Positions 6,804-46,200 of a stretch of DNA of 64,000 bases are shown here, in pieces. The notes below the pieces were generated by a model that saw only the letters and a program-made list of their open reading frames with translations, did not search any database and had not been told where the DNA came from. Each line of letters opens with the position of its first letter. Position 1 is the stretch's first letter. The translations under genes were made by a program, and so were the position numbers. This DNA comes from Oscillospiraceae bacterium. GTDB lineage: Bacteria; Bacillota; Clostridia; Oscillospirales; Oscillospiraceae. The stretch covers positions 39,608-103,607 of the forward strand of contig JAFTYM010000013.1 of NCBI GenBank assembly GCA_017461585.1, written 5' to 3'.

Positions 6804-8723
6804 CAAAAACTCCTCTACAGCCACATCATCCCACACTATCTGCACGGCGTAGGCGTTCGGAAGCTCAACAGGATCTATGCCCACGCTGCCCCAGCCTCCG
6901 CCTCCACCGGTTTTGATAATGCCGTTAAAAGATCCGTCCACCCACTCAGACTGATAGCTGTACTCTCCCGAAACGGCGCCTTTCCCCGCACCAATCTCAG
7001 TAAATTCATACTTATCTTCTGCATCATCAAGGGGCACAACTTCCATACCTACGTAGTTTTCAGGCTCTGCAGCTGTGGTTTTTGTGTTCATGTCGTACAC
7101 GTGGCGGTTCCATATCATAACATAGCTGAACTCTGCGTTGAGTTTGGGTGCTTCGTCAAAATAATCCTGATTCCACCCCGAGGTTCCCGTATTGTATATT
7201 TCATACTCAAGGCTTTGACCCAAAGTTACGCTTCCGTACTCACCCTGTACCTCAAACACATTGACAAGGGGCAGGTCAATATCGTTTACCTCTCGGTCAA
7301 AAATCTGTCTTTCACCTGTTTCCTCAACGACCCAACCGTTATTTTGGTAAACAGTAACAGGAATAAGCACAGTTCCGCTATTATACTCTCCCATCTCCTC
7401 GTCATACTCTCCGTATGTGCTTATGGCTATCACGGCGCTGTAAGTGCCGTCTCCGTTTGAGACCACATTGTACAGCGTATATCCGCTGTCCTTATCCACA
7501 TAGTCAAGCTCCGCCCCCGACTCAACATGATATGCCACCCAGCCGTCCTCACAGCTTTTCAGCATTTCAGCCATCAGCTCATCATGCGCATCTAAAGGCG
7601 ATGCTGCCGCCAGATACACTCCGTTTTCAAGGATAAGTCCCTTGGCATAAGTATCCAGCGCACCGGGGATAGTACCGCAGCGATTTATGCGCACAACAGC
7701 CATGCTGCGGTCCAGCTCATTTTCCCATACAGGCATCAAATCCTGCTGAGACACGGTATAGCTGCTGCCCGACAGGAGTATGCTGGCAGTAAACACAACA
7801 ATACACAGGGAAACAAGCGCCATTCCGCGGGGATACTTTTTAAACCGCACAATAGCTTCAATGCGCCGCGCAATATTTTTGCCGCCGTTGGATATGGACG
7901 TAGTTCCTGCTGCGCGGGCATATCGGTCGTTTGCCATGTCAAGGAGGATAACTCCGTATTCACGGCGCTCCTCGCCCTCAAGGCGCTCCAAAACGCGCTG
8001 ATCGCACAGCGATTCCATGTCGTTTGATATGCGGTCAAAAACATAGTGCATAAATGGATTACACCAATGAAGCGCTCTCAAAATGCTCCACAGCACACTC
8101 TGCAGCGCATCGTGATATTTAACGTGCAGGAGCTCATGGAGAATTATTTTATCATCGGGTACCGTACCCTTCGGCACGGCCAGAATGGGTTTTATGCTTC
8201 CGCACACAAAGGCAGATCCGATTCCCTCAGCTTCAACGATCCTGCACATTTTCAGCCCGTATTTTTCCGCCACGCGGTCTGCTGCTTCCTGCAAAGCTTC
8301 TGAGGGCACATCCCCCTTTTTCAGAATGACTCTGAGGCGGACATACGAAAATGCGTACCAAAGCAAAGATACTATAACTCCGCCGGCATACACAGCAAAA
8401 AACCAGTCTGTGACACTCTTTGGAATTTCAAAAAGCGCCGGCAAAAACCACGCATTTTCAAGGGGCACGAAAGCTGAGGAAAATTCGGAAACCAAATTTT
8501 TCTCGCAAAAGCTTTTCAGCATCTCTATCCACAGAGGCAGCGGCACAAACACGCCCTGTTTTATGCTGATTGGGACAAAGGTGCGCAGCACCAGCGCCGC
8601 CCATACGCCGTATTGCCATCGCGGCGACAGTTTATCCTCTAAAATCCGTTTGATTATGAGAATGAACCCTGCCGAAATCGAAATCGTAAGGGTAAAAATA
8701 AGGAATTGCCAGATATTTCCCAA
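6795..8723 (-). CDS. BlaR1-type M56 family membrane metallopeptidase/sensor
   Basis: 642 residues. N-terminal membrane helices (residues 5-24, about 35-55, about 105-125) frame the M56 zinc-peptidase domain with HELLH near residue 195 and NDMESLCDQRVLERL downstream. Another helix lies at about 300-320 (ALVSLCIVVFTASILLSGS). A long C-terminal extracytoplasmic region of about 320 residues follows; it is not an obvious beta-lactam-binding domain. Such proteins sense an external signal and cleave their partner BlaI-type repressor, here encoded 3 bp upstream. The start is TTG 8723 with GGAGG inside the end of the repressor gene. The last codons and stop lie in the right end of the MITE-like element, so the natural C-terminus may have been altered. 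Confidence 0.85.
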   Translation of the reverse strand: MGNIWQFLIFTLTISISAGFILIIKRILEDKLSPRWQYGVWAALVLRTFVPISIKQGVFVPLPLWIEMLKSFCEKNLVSEFSSAFVPLENAWFLPALFEIPKSVTDWFFAVYAGGVIVSLLWYAFSYVRLRVILKKGDVPSEALQEAADRVAEKYGLKMCRIVEAEGIGSAFVCGSIKPILAVPKGTVPDDKIILHELLHVKYHDALQSVLWSILRALHWCNPFMHYVFDRISNDMESLCDQRVLERLEGEERREYGVILLDMANDRYARAAGTTSISNGGKNIARRIEAIVRFKKYPRGMALVSLCIVVFTASILLSGSSYTVSQQDLMPVWENELDRSMAVVRINRCGTIPGALDTYAKGLILENGVYLAAASPLDAHDELMAEMLKSCEDGWVAYHVESGAELDYVDKDSGYTLYNVVSNGDGTYSAVIAISTYGEYDEEMGEYNSGTVLIPVTVYQNNGWVVEETGERQIFDREVNDIDLPLVNVFEVQGEYGSVTLGQSLEYEIYNTGTSGWNQDYFDEAPKLNAEFSYVMIWNRHVYDMNTKTTAAEPENYVGMEVVPLDDAEDKYEFTEIGAGKGAVSGEYSYQSEWVDGSFNGIIKTGGGGGWGSVGIDPVELPNAYAVQIVWDDVAVEEFLLA

Positions 8724-16121: not shown

Positions 16122-16805
16122 TTACTTACCCAGAATAATCTTTGTGAGCTCCATAGGATCTACGATGGAACCATCCTTGTAAACTCTCATGTTGCCGCTG
16201 GCGATCTCGTCGATGAGGATAACTTCATCGTTGTTGTAGCCAAACTCGAACTTGATATCGTACAGGTCGAGACCCTTCTGTGCCAGTTCGTCTGCAACAA
16301 GCTTTGTAATAGTGAGAGTCTGAGCCTTCATGTCGTTGAACATCTCCTGGCTCATGATGCCGAGAGCTGCAAGGCCTTCGGATGTTACAAGGGGATCGCC
16401 CTTCTCGTCATCTTTGAGTGTAGCCTCAACATAGCCGCCCTCTAAGGGTGTACCGTCTGCAATGTATGCACCGTAGCGGCGGATGAAGCTGCCTGTTGCC
16501 TTAAGGCGGCAGATTACTTCAAGGCCCTTGCCGAATACCTTTGCAGGCAGAACTTCCATTGTGGCATCCTCAAGATTTGCGCTGACATAGTGAGTTTTGA
16601 TGCCTGCTTCCTTCAGAAGCTCGAAGAAGAGGATAGATGTCTCAAGGTTGGCACGGCCGATACCCTCGATTGTGAGACCGACAGTATTTTCACCGGGATC
16701 GAAAACGCCGTCTTTACCGGTGCAATCGTCCTTGAACTTCAGCATTACATTGCCGTTGTCAAGCTCGTAAACGTCTTTTGTCTTACCTTCATAAACTTTT
16801 TTCAT
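16122..16805 (-). CDS. purC: Phosphoribosylaminoimidazole-succinocarboxamide synthase
   Basis: 227 residues, the usual bacterial length. It ligates aspartate to CAIR using ATP in purine synthesis. [14 protein letters not shown] opens the ATP-binding lobe; [16 protein letters not shown] and [20 protein letters not shown] are the family's substrate and metal motifs. ATG 16805 is taken because GGAGG lies 9 nt upstream. It stands alone here, away from other pur genes, with its own terminator. Confidence 0.95.
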
Positions 16806-35030: not shown

Positions 35031-35597
35031 TTATTCTTCAGTTTCTGTAAGCTGTCCGACAATGTATTCGGTCGGCACACTCTCCGTACACCATACATTA
35101 TTTTCCGTTTTTCCGAAAACATAACCGTCGCGGTACATTTTATCCGCATCAATCTTTAATACGACGGGCGTCAGGTGCCATCGCGTTGCTGACTGCCATG
35201 CCTTGTCAGGTTCTGCCTGCATATGTACGGCGTGTCTGCTCATCCTGCTTATGGCACCGCTTTTCATTATTTTATCATATGCCACCGTTGTTGTACCATG
35301 GTACAGAAATTTTGGCGGAGCAAGATATTCCAACTCAGGTACAACCCATGGGATAGAATGTCCCTGACAGGCTTTGATTTTCGTGTGGTCGTCACTAAAC
35401 CGATACCGCCCTTTATCGTCCTGCTTTACTATCTCCTCAAGCTGAGCAAAATCCAGTGTATATTTGCCGCTGTTGTTGATTCCTTTGATAAGCTCTTCCG
35501 CCGAAACCCAGCCGTGCTCGTCCATTTTCAGCCCCGCATCATCAGGATTGTGCCGCAGCAGATAGCTGATGTAAACCGAAACATTTTTCTTTGCCAA
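35031..35597 (-). CDS. kptA: RNA 2'-phosphotransferase (Tpt1/KptA family)
   Basis: 188 residues, the normal length. Transfers a 2'-phosphate from RNA to NAD+. ISYLLRHNP, KACQGHSIPW, FLYHGTT, and RMSRHAVHMQ/ATRWHLTPVVLKI carry the conserved Arg-His-Arg-Arg set. The start is TTG 35597 with GGAGG about 10 nt upstream (ATG is absent). The bacterial role is unclear because bacteria lack the tRNA-splicing substrate; RNA repair or NAD-linked modification are possibilities. Confidence 0.92.
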   Translation of the reverse strand: MAKKNVSVYISYLLRHNPDDAGLKMDEHGWVSAEELIKGINNSGKYTLDFAQLEEIVKQDDKGRYRFSDDHTKIKACQGHSIPWVVPELEYLAPPKFLYHGTTTVAYDKIMKSGAISRMSRHAVHMQAEPDKAWQSATRWHLTPVVLKIDADKMYRDGYVFGKTENNVWCTESVPTEYIVGQLTETEE

Positions 35598-36510: not shown

Positions 36511-36537
36511 ATGGTAGGCACAAAATGCGCCTACCAT
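36511..36537. terminator. Terminator, also follows spoIVB fragment A
   Basis: 9-bp stem ATGGTAGGC/GCCTACCAT, loop ACAAAATGC. On the minus strand it starts a few bases after the stop of the spoIVB 3'-end copy, as for the other two copies. Confidence 0.75.
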
Positions 36538-36541
36538 TTCT

Positions 36542-36618
36542 TTATCCCGCTGCATCCAACATATTTTCTATGAATATTCCGTATCGGGTTGGTTTACAAG
36601 AACACAGGTTACCGCTCC
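36542..36618 (-). pseudogene. spoIVB 3'-end fragment A (frameshifted)
   Basis: A copy of the last ~25 codons of the full gene at 37499-38488. GGAGCGGTAACCTGTG aligns with the gene's AVTHV codons, CCCGATACGG matches, a 7-base stretch is missing after GATACGG, and GGATGCAGCGGGATAA closes it identically to the real end. It starts within the 3' end of the 36609-36875 gene, which takes its last codons (VER-stop) from it. Its own terminator follows. Confidence 0.88.
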
Positions 36619-36875
36619 ACCGGCAGCCACCCGCAATCATGCAGTTTCTTTGAAATTTCCTGCCGGTCCAGTCTTTCTGCGTTTCCCGGAATCAGTCTTT
36701 CGATTGCCCTGCAAAAACCATCCACATCGCCATTTTCAAGCACAGACGACGGAATCCAGCTATCGATTGGGGAATCATTGTCAAACCGGCTGGCAGGTCG
36801 GTACCGTACATTAAACCCAGTCTTCTCTTTTCTGACATCAAACCCAAATCCACTGCAGAAAATCGTTATACTCAT
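36609..36875 (-). CDS. Small hypothetical protein, cassette ORF 2
   Basis: 88 residues, soluble, not recognised (opens MSITIFCSGFGFDVRKEK; contains WIPSSVLENGDVDGFCRAI). AGGAGG lies 6 nt before ATG 36875. Its last three codons and stop are formed by the start of spoIVB fragment A, so its natural C-terminus may have been lost or replaced. Confidence 0.6.
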   Translation of the reverse strand: MSITIFCSGFGFDVRKEKTGFNVRYRPASRFDNDSPIDSWIPSSVLENGDVDGFCRAIERLIPGNAERLDRQEISKKLHDCGWLPVER

Positions 36876-36953
36876 AGCCAGCCTCCTAAATGTGTTATGC
36901 TTTTTCATAGAATCATTATTTTCATCATATCACAATTTCTTAAAATAACAAGC

Positions 36954-36981
36954 AACATGCGGGAGCAAGCCCCCGCATGTT
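36954..36981 (-). terminator. Terminator after spoIVB fragment B
   Basis: 10-bp stem AACATGCGGG/CCCGCATGTT immediately downstream (minus strand) of the fragment B stop codon. Confidence 0.75.
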
Positions 36982-36984
36982 AAC

Positions 36985-37107
36985 TTATCCCGCTGCTTCC
37001 AGCATTTTATCTATAAATATTCCGTACCCAGTATCTAGGCTGTTAACAAGCACATGCGTCACCGCACCAACCAGTTTTCCGTCCTGAATGATGGGGCTTC
37101 CGGACAC
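36985..37107 (-). pseudogene. spoIVB 3'-end fragment B (40 codons, open)
   Basis: Encodes [20 protein letters not shown], then [20 protein letters not shown] and stop; the real gene has MSGSPII and [18 protein letters not shown]. By hand count 103 of 123 bases match, many differences being synonymous. No upstream part or start exists, so it cannot be functional despite keeping the SGSP catalytic motif. It lies between the cassette ORF at 37135-37404 and a terminator. Confidence 0.93.
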
Positions 37108-37134
37108 GAGTGATGGTCATTAGTGGCAACAAGT

Positions 37135-37404
37135 TTATCGGTTAAGCAAATCCTGCCAGTTATCCTCCGAAATATTCACATATTTTTCGGCTCTGCTGTC
37201 CTCTGATTTTTCCGCAAGCTTCCTGACACTTTCTACGGATATAGCCTTCCCTTTCTGATTCGCCGCATATGCGCAAATTCCGCCACACTGCGTACCTTCA
37301 AACAGCGCATTATAAAAGCATTTCTCGCTTGCGTCAAAAATGACAGCGGCATAATGATAATTGTCCAAAAACTGTGATACAAACAGTTCCTTATAATTTT
37401 CCAT
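37135..37404 (-). CDS. Small hypothetical protein, cassette ORF 1
   Basis: 89 residues, soluble, not recognised (MENYKELFVSQFLDNYHYAA; CYNALFEGTQCGGICAYAAN). GGAGGAG precedes ATG 37404. Lies between the terminator of intact spoIVB and fragment B; it has no similarity to ORF 2. Size and context are like accessory or immunity-type genes but no function can be claimed. Confidence 0.6.
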   Translation of the reverse strand: MENYKELFVSQFLDNYHYAAVIFDASEKCFYNALFEGTQCGGICAYAANQKGKAISVESVRKLAEKSEDSRAEKYVNISEDNWQDLLNR

Positions 37405-37465
37405 TTCTCTCCTCCTGTGTTTTCAATTCTATCTTTCATACATTATATCAGACATATCGAAAAAA

Positions 37466-37489
37466 GGCAGGGGGCAAATGCCCCCTGCC
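37466..37489 (-). terminator. Terminator of spoIVB
   Basis: 10-bp GC stem GGCAGGGGGC/GCCCCCTGCC, loop ATTT, followed by TTTTTTCG on the minus strand. Confidence 0.9.
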
Positions 37490-37498
37490 ATAAATTAT

Positions 37499-38488
37499 TT
37501 ATCCCGCTGCATCCAGCATATTCTCAATAAATATGCCATATCCCGTATCGGGTTGATTCACAAGCACATGGGTCACCGCACCCACCAGCTTTCCGTCCTG
37601 AATGATGGGGCTTCCAGACATTCCCTGCACGATGCCTCCTGTTATCTCCAAAAGCTCTTCGTCGGTAACTTTAAGGACAAAGCAGTGCCCCTCTCTGTTA
37701 TCAAGATCCGTTTTCACTATCTCAACATCAAACTCTCTCGGGCCTTTACCGTCAACGCAGGAGATGATTGTCGCTGCACCTATGTGCACCTCATCTTCCG
37801 CCGCTGTCTCCATAAGCTCTGACGTATCAAGGAGCGATGGGTCCGTAACCGTTCCGAAAATACCGAAAACTGTATTTTCACTTACAAATCCCACAACGGA
37901 CCCGTAGTCAAACTCACCCATAAGCTGCCCCGGTATACCGCAGCGGCCTTCTATGACCTCTGTAACACGGGCATCCGCCGCAACGCCGCCTCCGATGGGC
38001 ATAATCACACCTGTGTCTATATCATTTACTCCGTGACCCAGCGCACCGAAAGTTTTTGTCTCGGGGTCGTAAAACGTCACAGTTCCTATACCGGACAAGC
38101 TGTCACGCATCCAAAGTCCAAGCTCGGCATTTCCGCTTTTGCCCACGCGGGGTGTCACCGTTATTTTCTTTTCTGCGCCGTCACGCACAACAGTAATTTC
38201 TATCGGTTCTGTGCCAAGCTTCACGCTCCCCACATCAATACCGCAGTTTATGGGTGTGTCACCGATCTGCACTATCACATCACCCGCTTTAATTCCCGCA
38301 TCCCTTGCCGCAGATGCGTCCTCATCGGGAAATCCGACTACCAGCACGCCTTTTGTCTCAAGACTTATTCCCACCACATCGCCCACAGGAATAAGACTTC
38401 TGCCTGCTGCCAGCGTCACCTGTGTAAGAGACAGCAGCACCATGCAGACAGCAGCAAATCTTATCAGCGATTTCTTTATTTTTACCAA
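37499..38488 (-). CDS. spoIVB: SpoIVB-type serine peptidase (S55)
   Basis: About 329 residues. N-terminal signal/membrane segment, PDZ domain about residues 45-115 (GVLVVGFPDEDASAARDAGI, GDVIVQIGD), S55 peptidase domain with ALGHG (His) and [20 protein letters not shown] (nucleophile Ser). Cleaves SpoIVFA to trigger pro-sigma-K processing (B. subtilis knowledge). TTG 38488 has GGAGG 10 nt upstream; the GTG at 38497 is only 2 nt from it. In Bacillus it directly precedes spo0A in the same direction; here it points away, with an M14 gene between. Two divergent copies of its 3' end lie downstream. Confidence 0.92.
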   Translation of the reverse strand: MVKIKKSLIRFAAVCMVLLSLTQVTLAAGRSLIPVGDVVGISLETKGVLVVGFPDEDASAARDAGIKAGDVIVQIGDTPINCGIDVGSVKLGTEPIEITVVRDGAEKKITVTPRVGKSGNAELGLWMRDSLSGIGTVTFYDPETKTFGALGHGVNDIDTGVIMPIGGGVAADARVTEVIEGRCGIPGQLMGEFDYGSVVGFVSENTVFGIFGTVTDPSLLDTSELMETAAEDEVHIGAATIISCVDGKGPREFDVEIVKTDLDNREGHCFVLKVTDEELLEITGGIVQGMSGSPIIQDGKLVGAVTHVLVNQPDTGYGIFIENMLDAAG

Positions 38489-38521
38489 ATTCTGCACTTC
38501 CTCCTTTCGTTTCAGCTATTT

Positions 38522-39934: not shown

Positions 39935-40078
39935 TTTATCTCTTTTCCTAAAATTTTATATAATACCATATTTTGTTGTACTATTCAGTTGCACCACACC
40001 ATAGATTGTGATAAATTAAAAAAAGGACGGCGGAAAGATATATATTGCACGATCATTCTGCTACGGAGGACTCTCGAT

Positions 40079-40855
40079 ATGGAAAAACTTATTAAAATCT
40101 ACATTGCCGACGCAGGCGATGAATATCGCGCTGTATTGAAAAATGTGCTGGACGCAGACGGCGGTTTTGTGATAACCGGCAGCACAGGAAACGGAAACGA
40201 AGCAGCCTTGAGGATCAAGGAGACGGCACCCGACGTTGTTATCATGGATGTCATACTGTCAGGCATGGACGGTCTTGGTGTCATGCAGTCTGTGACCGCT
40301 TCCGTAAGTGACAAAAAGCCCCTTTTTATTGTCGTATCATCATTCTTTGACGAGCACACATTAAACGCCGCATCCTCTTTGGGCGCAGTTTACTTTGTGC
40401 AGAAACCTTTTGACGCCGCAATAATCCCCGACCGTATCAGAAGCCTCACAGGCAAGGGCGCTCCTGCAGTTGCTGCTCTGCCCGCTGCAGCGCTTCCCAG
40501 TATTGAGGCTCACGTCACGGACATTATCCACGAAATAGGTGTTCCTGCTCACATCAAGGGCTACAAGTATCTTCGCGAGTCCATTATTATGGCAGTTGAG
40601 GATATGGAGGTCATAAATGCTGTCACAAAAGTCCTCTACCCGGCTGTGGCTAACCGCTTCGGCACAACTCCTTCCCGTGTTGAGCGCGCTATCCGCCATG
40701 CAATCGAGGTGGCTTGGGACAGAGGCGACATTGAAACTCTGCAGAAATATTTCGGCTATACAGTTTCAAACATAAAAGGCAAACCGACCAATTCAGAATT
40801 CATCGCCATGATCGCTGACAGAATTTCTCTCCAGCGCAAACGTGCTGTGAGATAA
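40079..40855 (+). CDS. spo0A: Sporulation master regulator Spo0A
   Basis: 258 residues. Receiver domain 1-120 with phosphoacceptor Asp57 ([13 protein letters not shown]) and Lys in VQKPFD. DNA-binding domain from about 135 with the strongly conserved [32 protein letters not shown] and [12 protein letters not shown]. Where most receivers have two acidic residues (ADDN), this one reads IADAGDE, so one pocket residue is Ala. CGGAGGA precedes ATG 40079. A long hairpin follows. Confidence 0.96.
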
Positions 40856-43289: not shown

Positions 43290-46200
43290 TTACTCTTCGA
43301 TAAACAAATATGTAGTTGTTGAGCTGCTGCTGAGAGTTACACTTCCGTTTGAGTAGCGCAGATAGTTTGAACCTACTTTAAGTCTGCTGTTACTGAAGGA
43401 AATGCTGCTGGAGTTGGATGTGCTGAGACTAAGAGTGTAGCTTGAATTGCCCCACCAGTTCCACCAGCTGTTTGATTTTGATGCGTACAGATAATATGTT
43501 TTGCCGTCGTCCTCATAGCTGAGCTTTTTATTTCTGTAGCTCCATACCATATCGTCAGTAATTTCAGATGTGATGACGCCGTTGGATACCGTTACCTGAA
43601 CTGCTGAAATCTTGTTGTCCTCATGAGTAAGAGCATAGTACTTTCTGCCTGAGTAGAATGTGATGACATATTCATTGCCCGAAGAAATTGATGTTACTCT
43701 TGTATATGTCTTGTTTGCGACCTCTTCGGTATATGTATCGCCGCAGCTTTCGCAGGTGTATACAAGATAATCTCCGTCCTCTGTGCATGTGTAGCTATGA
43801 CCGAAGGCTGCTGTGTTATCTGCTGTGTAGCTGTCACCACAGTTTGCGCAGGTATATGTTGTGAAACCTGCTGTTGTACATGTAGCCTCTGTTATAACAG
43901 CTGTGTAGTCATGACCGAGAGCGTCAACATAAGTATCTACTGTTGTCTCTCCGCAGTTTGTACATGTATGTGTGGTATAGCCTGCATTTTCGCATGTCGC
44001 TTCAGTTACTACAGAGTCGACATTGTGTCCGAGAGCTTCTGTGTAGCTGTCAGTATAGCTGTCATCACAGTTTTCACAGGAGTGGATGGTGTATCCTCCA
44101 TCTGTGCAGGTTGCCTTGCGTGTAATGGCAACGTAAGAATGACCAAGAGCTGCAGTTTCATCTGCCGTGTATGTATCACCGCAGTTTGCACATGTAAATG
44201 CTGTATATCCGTCTTCTGTGCAGGTGGGCGCTGTTACTTCTGCCTTGTAATCGTGACCGAGAGCTGCAGTCTCTGCTGTATAGCTGTCGTCACAGTTTTC
44301 ACATGTATATACTGTGATGCCTGCCTGTGTGCAGGTGGGCGCTGTGCATGCTGCCGTGTAGTTATGGCCTGTTGCTGCGATTATTTCAACCTCTGTGTCG
44401 CCGCAGTTTGCACATGTTTTTTCTGTGCTGCCGGTCTCTGTGCATGTTGCGGGAGTTGTTACTGTCTCGTAAGCATGGCCTGCTGCTGCAACATAGGAGT
44501 CAACCGTCACCTCACCGCAGACAGTACATGTATGTGTTGTGTAACCGTCTGTTTCGCATGACGCTTCAGTTACAACAGACGTATTGCTGTGACCGAACGC
44601 AGAGACGATGCCATCTGTATAGCTGTCGCCGCATGCTGCACAGGTGTGCACAGAGTAACCGTCTGTTTCACATGCAGCCTCAACAACAACTGTCTCGTAG
44701 TCGTGACCGAGAGCTGCAGTTTCGTCATAAACATATCCGTCACCGCAGTATGTGCAGGTGTAGGTTGTGTATCCGCCTTCTGTACAGGTGGGTTCTACGG
44801 TAACTGTGCTGTAATTGTGACCTGTTGCTGCTGTCTCATCAGCAATGTATGTATCGCCGCAAGCTGTGCAGGTATATGTTGTAAAACCGTCCTCTGTACA
44901 TGTGGGTTCTGTGACAGCTGCCATGTAGTTATGACCTGTTGCTGCAATTACCTCAACTGTTTTTTCTCCGCAAGCTGCGCATGCTGTTGTAACGCTGCCG
45001 TCTGCCGTGCAGGTTGCAGGAACTGTTACTGTTTCAAAATCATGCCCTGCAGCTGCCGTCTCATCCGCTGTGTATGTATCGCCGCAGCCTGTGCAGGTAT
45101 ATGTTGTCAAGCCGCCCTCTGTACAGGTAGGCTCTGTGACAACTGCCGTGTAGTTATGACCTGTCGCTGCGATTACTTCAACTGTTGTTTCTCCGCAAAG
45201 CGCGCATGCTGTTGTAACGCTGCCGTCTGCCGTGCAGGTTGCAGGAACCGTAACCGTCTCATATACATGATCACAGGAGTCGTTGTTTACATACTCCAAA
45301 ACCTCAGCGTAGAACATGATGAAGGGACCAACGCCCTTGCCTTCGTTATTGTAGAAGGTGGAGTTGGAGCTGCCGGGAGCACCCTTAAAGCAGATGTCTG
45401 TAAGTGTGGAACCGCTGAGTTTCTCGCTGCAGATACCGTTAAAGGCAAGGATGCCATACTGTGCATAAGATTCATCCAGCCAGCCGTTGTTTACAGCCTT
45501 CATGATTGCATAGCATACGAGTGCGGTACCGCTTGTCTCATAGGGGTTTGTGGAGGACTTGGATGCATTCATGTTGTTCAGCCACATACCGTTGGATGTG
45601 TTCTGGCATGCGATCATGCCGTCTACCAGCTTTACAAGCTGTGCCTGCATAGCAGCAAGGTTGTCGCCGTCCATGCTGTCCATAATATCAACAATAGCTG
45701 CTGCGTACCAACCGATGGAGCGGAGCCAATATGTTCCGGAGTTGGAAGATGCAGAGTCTGCTGCGTGATAGAACAGACCCTTGGAGCTGTTGTACATGTT
45801 GTCACTTACCCACTGCATGCGGTCTACAATAAGGTCAAGCTCATCTGTGTCGCCGATATACTTGGCGTACTCAGCTCTGAAGGGAAGGATCATGTAAAGA
45901 CCGTCAAGCCACAGGTCAGGAGTGGGATCGGTTGCCCATGTGTGACGATAGTTATTACCTGCATTTTTCAGAGAGTACTTGCTTGCAGCGCTGTCAAGGT
46001 CAGCATACAGAGTTGCTGCCATTGTGAGATAGCGCTCGTCACCTGTCATCTCATAAGCATCAAGCAGAAGGCTTGCTGTCTTATAGCAGTCTGCACCGTG
46101 AGTGGAGTTGTATCCTGCGCGCTGCTTGGAAGAGTTGTTGGAGCAGTATGCCCATGTGCCGTCTGCCTTAATGAGAGAAGACATATATTCAATGACATAA

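Follow-up and report, generated by a model that had tools for sequence, protein, structure and literature searches.

Displaced copies of the spoIVB 3' end behind a conserved recombination arm suggest tandem accretion of small cassettes at a sporulation gene in Oscillospiraceae and their relatives

Behind the intact spoIVB gene of an Oscillospiraceae bacterium, diverged copies of the gene's own 3' end alternate with small accessory genes, and this array probably grew as small non-autonomous cassettes were added in tandem at the TG of codon 293, a junction that we attribute to large serine recombinases (LSRs) of one clade, which occur as triplets. The array lies in the window, the 64,000-nt stretch of DNA analysed here (GCA_017461585.1, JAFTYM010000013.1:39,608-103,607, forward strand; genome 79% complete, 54 contigs), and is internal to a long contig (G000:C47:76149-78095). 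Each cassette unit would comprise a spoIVB tail, a terminator, one or more accessory genes and an arm of about 24 nt. On insertion, the incoming tail would be joined to the 5' part already present, which keeps spoIVB whole, while the tail that it replaces would end up downstream of the arm. The part of spoIVB that lies 3' of codon 293 is accordingly read as the latest-acquired tail, and two insertion events would be visible in the window, the older one decayed.

On the minus strand the order is spoIVB, terminator, 89-aa ORF, tail copy 1, terminator, 88-aa ORF, decayed tail copy 2 and terminator (Table 1), with cassette spacings of 514 and 443 bp. The original prediction had described an intact spoIVB followed by a 40-codon copy of its end about 84% identical to it, a second copy of about 25 codons with a deletion, and open frames of 89 and 88 aa between the copies, all of which were recovered. 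The gene product matches TIGR02860 (4.4e-92, slightly above the cut-off) and Peptidase_S55 (1.7e-75); tail 1 and the spoIVB end share 84% identity without gaps and 86% in a BLAST alignment (E 9e-33), Peptidase_S55 still recognises the 40-aa product of tail 1 at 3.1e-17, and copy 2 is a remnant with its matches split over two frames. Except for a block at 43.8-45.3 kb, no direct repeats in the window are stronger than the tail copies. A terminator-like stem stands behind each of the three stops, at spacings of 9, 2 and 4 nt (3-9 bp as first described); the terminator scan returned 5 terminator-like sites, some overlapping, against 1.9 +/- 1.6 expected.

Table 1. Features of the spoIVB array in the window; cassette labels follow the proposed reading
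Feature	Position	Strand	Basis or size
spoIVB, intact (PDZ + S55 peptidase)	37499-38497	(-)	family models
Codon 293 (ATG, directly before SGSP motif), attB site	37619-37621	(-)	junction mapping across loci
Current tail (B' half), 39 codons + stop; cassette 1 left end	37499-37618	(-)	
Terminator-like stem 1, 9 nt past spoIVB stop	37466-37489	(-)	terminator scan
89-aa ORF, cassette 1 cargo; AGGAGG immediately 5' of ATG	37135-37404	(-)	open frame
Conserved arm (P half of recombination site), TGTTGCCACTAATGACCATCACTC, abutting displaced tail 1	37108-37131	(-)	
Displaced spoIVB tail 1 (GTG + 39 codons + stop)	36985-37107	(-)	BLAST, family model
Cassette 1	about 37105-37618		514 bp
Terminator-like stem 2, 2 nt past tail 1 stop	36953-36982	(-)	terminator scan
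88-aa ORF, cassette 2 cargo	36609-36875	(-)	open frame from ATG at 36875
Displaced tail 2, remnant without arm and core, frameshifted	36542-36618	(-)	matches in two frames
Terminator-like stem 3, 4 nt past tail remnant 2 stop	36511-36537	(-)	terminator scan

Both small frames are open. The 88-aa ORF reads as 99 aa from an upstream start, and its stop sits at the junction with the tail remnant; its structure model (mean pLDDT 82.6) had no clear fold match. The proposed search for homologues of the two ORFs drew a blank, with nothing above the cut-off in family, defence-model and homologue searches. Around the array, spo0A (39989-40855) lies on the opposite side of spoIVB, a KptA/Tpt1-family RNA 2'-phosphotransferase (35031-35597) lies just past the array, and the separate repeat block (43798-45269) is made up of direct repeats that overlap one another (64-86% identity) and probably belongs to a repeat-containing gene.

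Displaced tails recur beyond the window, as the comparison of 3' ends with related genomes revealed. Scanning GTDB genomes with the window SpoIVB gave 80 loci (best 49% identical), and 14 of the 80 carry a second spoIVB tail downstream on the same strand, the copies covering the last 40 codons; 8 of the 66 loci without a second tail had <300 bp of contig remaining. These 14 arrays hold 22 secondary tails. With a query extended beyond the tail, 16 of the 22 have their first residue at 293 or 294, immediately ahead of the SGSP motif (one of the 16 read from two frames), and six are truncated or decayed at the start; no secondary SpoIVB match in the 14 loci fell entirely outside the tail region. 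At the family level, 346 of 400 genomes matched SpoIVB, none above 51% identity among the matches listed, and 40 besides the window genome had at least two matches. Of these 40, 11 have an additional match that begins between residues 290 and 293, one of them (G290) being a split gene, and the remaining extra matches are mostly short PDZ-region matches, contig splits or a class of splits and tail pieces at residues ~308-315. Two of five genomes in the genus had a SpoIVB match, the window's own and one 48% identical. The same tail-arm pattern is present in Pseudoflavonifractor sp. MSJ-30 (L079), whose record is not marked as MAG, and cassettes of about 0.5, 0.9 and 1 kb follow one another in L097.

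Different genera share a similar arm directly 5' of the displaced tails; it reads TGTTGTCC, a TA-rich step that varies, and TGACAATCACTC or a variant of it, and GTG comes next. It abuts 15 of the 22 secondary tails at <=7 mismatches to one of four arm strings, which were drawn from sites directly 5' of displaced tails. The arm pattern has a single match in the 64-kb window at <=3 mismatches (0.01 expected), at 37108-37131, a feature absent from the original prediction. With 1 mismatch allowed it occurs 9 times among 400 family genomes (8 with a site), and with 2 mismatches 9 times among 394 order genomes (9 with a site, in six families); reversed, it gave 0 sites in the same family and order searches. 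The spoIVB core follows 17 of 18 arm sites, at least three of these decayed (L114, L117, L155), the sole exception being a second arm in G064. Of the 17 contigs with such sites, 12 stop no more than about 420 bp from the arm (for G195, measured from its start), which is what a variable or repeated site would lead one to expect. The attP arms P and P' form a dyad centred on TG with 14, 16 and 21 matches of 25 positions, scores reached by 19, 1 and 0 of 2,000 shuffles, and the TG of codon 293 is the putative crossover dinucleotide.

Tails and the sequences beside them vary separately to a large degree. L183 and L184, two contigs of the same element, have 0 mismatches over 6,586 nt through the GTG and then differ at 23 of 71 positions, an exchange of tails at the TG; full decoupling of tail and cassette was demonstrated only for this pair. 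Related right ends were found in 20 pairs across different loci, also in different families beside differing tails. Six pairs are 84-97% alike over 127-350 bp next to tails only 61-77% alike (right end versus tail: L163-L166, 97% versus 77%; L180-L267, 90% versus 75%; L042-L267, 86% versus 67%), and the other 13, L183/L184 aside, are shorter or weaker. Median tail identity is 73% for the 20 pairs against 70% for 892 unselected pairs, 10 of the 20 exceed the upper quartile, and the L163-L166 tails agree at 19 of their first 20 nt. This slight excess beside related right ends suggests that tails are largely, not wholly, independent of the cassette.

The repeated insertion at the spoIVB 3' end originally proposed, with a diverged end each time, fits these data better than local duplication, because the same junction stands behind a conserved arm in other genera, related cassette right ends adjoin differing tails, and triplet-LSR elements share the junction. 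The idea that the tails stem from donor alleles agrees with the recurrent junction and with right ends beside differing tails. Plain tandem duplication of the spoIVB end followed by divergence, or an assembly artefact, would produce copies in tandem on one strand, yet it is highly improbable: several families have the arm in common, the cargo differs, 16 of the 22 secondary tails begin at one junction, and L079 is arranged alike. The recurring arm and junction contradict it.

Recombination of the RecA type, by which cassette circles would enter through tail homology and the fixed junction would be the fossil of a founding LSR event, appears quite unlikely. It could draw on the 84-86% identity of the window tails, which includes an identical run of >20 nt near the core, on the slightly greater likeness of tails beside related right ends, and on the fact that an arm-tail circle would retain its junction. 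L183 and L184, both full elements, nevertheless diverge right after the TG and not inside the tail, and the tails of the related right-end pairs still differ at 21-42% of positions.

The candidate recombinases come from full elements. An IMG/VR scan with the tail alignment gave 4 contigs, of which L182, L183 and L184 carry three tandem LSR genes with Resolvase, Recombinase and zinc-ribbon domains (Pfam); the last LSR gene ends about 80-140 bp before arm and tail in L183 and L182. Searching IMG/VR with the third LSR gave 43 contigs, each with at least 2 tandem LSR frames, and L205 has an LSR triplet, arm and spoIVB tail. Of 345 order genomes, 13 matched the third LSR at E 1e-100, with G681 and G651 standing out (790 and 768 bits; rest <372), and none at that threshold in the window genome, which is 79% complete. 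Triplet, arm and tail stand in a row in three genomes (G290, G651 and G681, the last with its arm ~1 kb past the triplet) and in three IMG/VR element types (L182, L183/L184, L205). These six tail-bearing elements fall into one clade with support 1.0 in a tree of 46 LSR sequences, together with L199-L204; no spoIVB tail was found in the sequence examined for L199-L204 or for the 34 tips outside the clade (mixed triplet positions). Adjacency, junctions and attP symmetry are the grounds on which the junction is attributed to this clade, and the enzymes are candidates on sequence evidence.

Two further observations bear on these elements. Directly after the displaced tail and terminator, L183 carries another LSR (6843-7871; 48% identical to the triplet's second), which suggests a second tandem element, and the first two LSRs of L235 are 99.8% identical to those of L182, the contig ending before the third. 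On another IMG/VR contig (L181:886-1005), an ordinary spoIVB 3' end has no arm, with 10 kb beyond it.

Full triplet elements split the gene. The spoIVB match ends at residue 294 in 3 of 3 genomes with such an element (G290, G651, G681), and past codon 293 the left side holds the arm in reverse in each. Only G290 shows the complete element in one piece: the tail lies ~95 kb along the same contig and strand, behind a triplet (three tandem LSR genes at L258:11215-16169) and an arm at 16217. The split gene and the triplet with its tail are on separate contigs in G651 and G681, and the G681 spoIVB holds an in-frame TGA. Next to the displaced tail in G290 and G651 comes spo0A (TIGR02875, 1.9e-84 and 3.6e-84), a gene usually paired with spoIVB. 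Ten chosen ORFs of the G290 element included a coupling protein (2.3e-48), TrbL (2.2e-6), a TraG P-loop protein (4.7e-10) and ParA. The fixed junction would be the work of an LSR clade whose triplets are carried by large elements, at least some of them conjugative.

A second site was also seen. The spoIVB match ends at residue 313-315 in G046 (L269), G217 (L259/L260) and G287 (L263/L264), and a different kind of LSR lies beside spoIVB in G046 and G217 and beside a separate tail piece in G287. In G367 (L262) such an LSR lies beside an extra tail piece that starts at residue 308, and G065 likewise carries an extra piece of the residue ~308-315 class. The spoIVB 3' end therefore seems to be the target of more than one LSR class. 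In G372 and G349 spoIVB is split at contig ends, which may reflect assembly.

Genes between tail and arm vary from array to array. The cargo includes Septu PtuA and PtuB (L089), SoFic (L039), a type IIG restriction enzyme with PDC-S01 and PDC-S02 proteins (L079), and also barstar, GH32, DUF1275, short-chain dehydrogenase, P-loop kinase-like and BNR-repeat proteins; an Imm44 match was sub-threshold. PADLOC matched 6 of 10 proteins chosen as defence-like or window-derived, a hand-picked set from which no defence-gene rate can be derived, and Pfam matched 8 of 10 array proteins, one of them (L042) located past the last tail. Transfer genes in the arrays were judged by reading the ORFs and scanning selected proteins. 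No LSR ORF was found in the 14 arrays or in the window region, and the 14 arrays also showed no tyrosine recombinase ORF and no LSR remnant of >=50 aa.

Cassettes lacking their own recombinase would move, or would have moved, in trans as circles with a single arm-TG-tail site, into the intact gene. We infer this transfer, like the origin of the arrays from the LSR clade and any present mobility. Several observations weigh against the cassette model: the known full elements interrupt spoIVB and do not restore it, and a reaction of attB with an arm-tail site differs from the canonical attP x attB. To these come the arrays without recombinase ORFs, the window genome without a third-LSR match, the single case (G290) of an element in one piece, the slight likeness of tails beside related right ends, the tail-less L199-L204 and the mid-array gene of L067. 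The splitting of spoIVB by full elements favours decay and repair, after the CIME model, in which triplet elements inserted and lost genes by deletion, a foreign tail repaired spoIVB, and arm-tail sites are scars and cassettes fossils rather than mobile units. We regard this account as possible but doubtful, with the caveat that it shares the LSR junction with the cassette model, so that the odds of the two overlap. Of the 22 tails, six have a truncated or decayed start, several arm sites are decayed too, L067 keeps an attP-like dyad within its array, and L117/L170 starts with an open frame like an LSR C-terminus (63 aa, E 2.3e-5) that ends about 500 bp before the arm, all of which count in its favour. 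It accords less well with the lack of any LSR remnant of >=50 aa in the 14 arrays, with compact cassettes carrying different genes in several arrays, such as those of the window and L097, and with related right ends in different families beside differing tails.

The L067 array itself has a conserved neighbour gene in its middle and two further tails beyond. Its inverted-repeat dyad (arm plus reversed arm; L067:10486-10536) lies ~20 bp past the first displaced tail and has TA instead of TG as central dinucleotide; simple cassette insertion leaves it unaccounted for.

More tentatively, and with lower confidence than for accretion itself, spoIVB might be the docking platform of an integron-like serine-recombinase system, in which often single-gene cassettes are mobilised in trans by triplet-LSR conjugative elements; this reading includes promiscuous cassettes, defence and immunity genes among them, and a uniform arm-TG-tail site. 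SpoIVB is a forespore product, and an element that splits its gene would be lost from the spore or would spoil it, which would select for cassettes carrying the gene's end.

We found no description in the literature of spoIVB as an integration site or mobile-gene hotspot. The analysis defines attB and attP for such a hotspot in little-studied gut relatives of Oscillospiraceae and points to a candidate clade of recombinases. Since some cassettes carry known defence genes, their uncharacterised genes become candidates for defence or immunity. A sporulation checkpoint protease is tied to conjugative elements, which raises the question of how hosts with a split forespore gene form spores, and the LSRs and their sites may serve as integration tools.

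Several known systems share parts of this arrangement. SCC/ECC elements use large serine recombinases and one site in the rlmH 3' region and have variable gene content (PMC6222049). Here the target is spoIVB rather than rlmH, LSR triplets, seen only on full elements, take the place of CcrAB, and the 14 arrays have no ccr-type LSR genes of their own; the cassettes, about 0.4-7 kb and without a recombinase, supply a 39-codon tail, and full elements split the gene. Dehalococcoides ssrA islands likewise combine a serine recombinase with tandem islands and repeated 3' ends of a conserved gene, with a 15-bp motif directly 5' of the repeats and 15 islands without an integration module (PMC3146451). 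Their repeat is 20 bp of an RNA gene, whereas spoIVB arrays repeat a 120-nt coding tail with its terminator, and a CcrB-like integrase with a small partner contrasts with an LSR triplet and smaller cassettes. CIMEs lack integration and transfer genes and stack at one att site (PMC5704250). They are bounded by attL/attR pairs, in contrast to the intact gene and repeated arm-tail sites of the often one-gene spoIVB cassettes; the arrays keep arm-tail (attR-type) sites, and on the left, where a B-P' attL would stand, the gene is intact.

Full elements have their own counterparts. In Streptococcus ICEs, which are conjugative elements, three consecutive LSR genes lie close to one end (PMC4701971), and the G290 element similarly has three tandem LSR genes beside att together with conjugation machinery; the Streptococcus triplet ICEs target mutT, traG and hsdM (PMC4701971) rather than spoIVB, and the two are likened by description, not by sequence. 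Like gin and SPbeta, which intervene in sporulation genes, full triplet elements split a sporulation gene in G290, G651 and G681, while the window spoIVB is intact. The forespore gene spoIVB differs in compartment from the usual targets of such elements. Those targets are almost all mother-cell genes (PMC6957869), and gin has three serine recombinases, girAB and a distant girC, of which only GirC is needed (PMC5595907). As for integrons, the arms are read as double-stranded LSR half-sites, and no IntI-type tyrosine recombinase lies near the arrays, the tyrosine-recombinase profile having matched only L054, a locus without an array, among the loci searched. With precedents in SCC and in the Dehalococcoides ssrA islands, the arrays are best read as SCC- or CIME-like cassettes docked at spoIVB.
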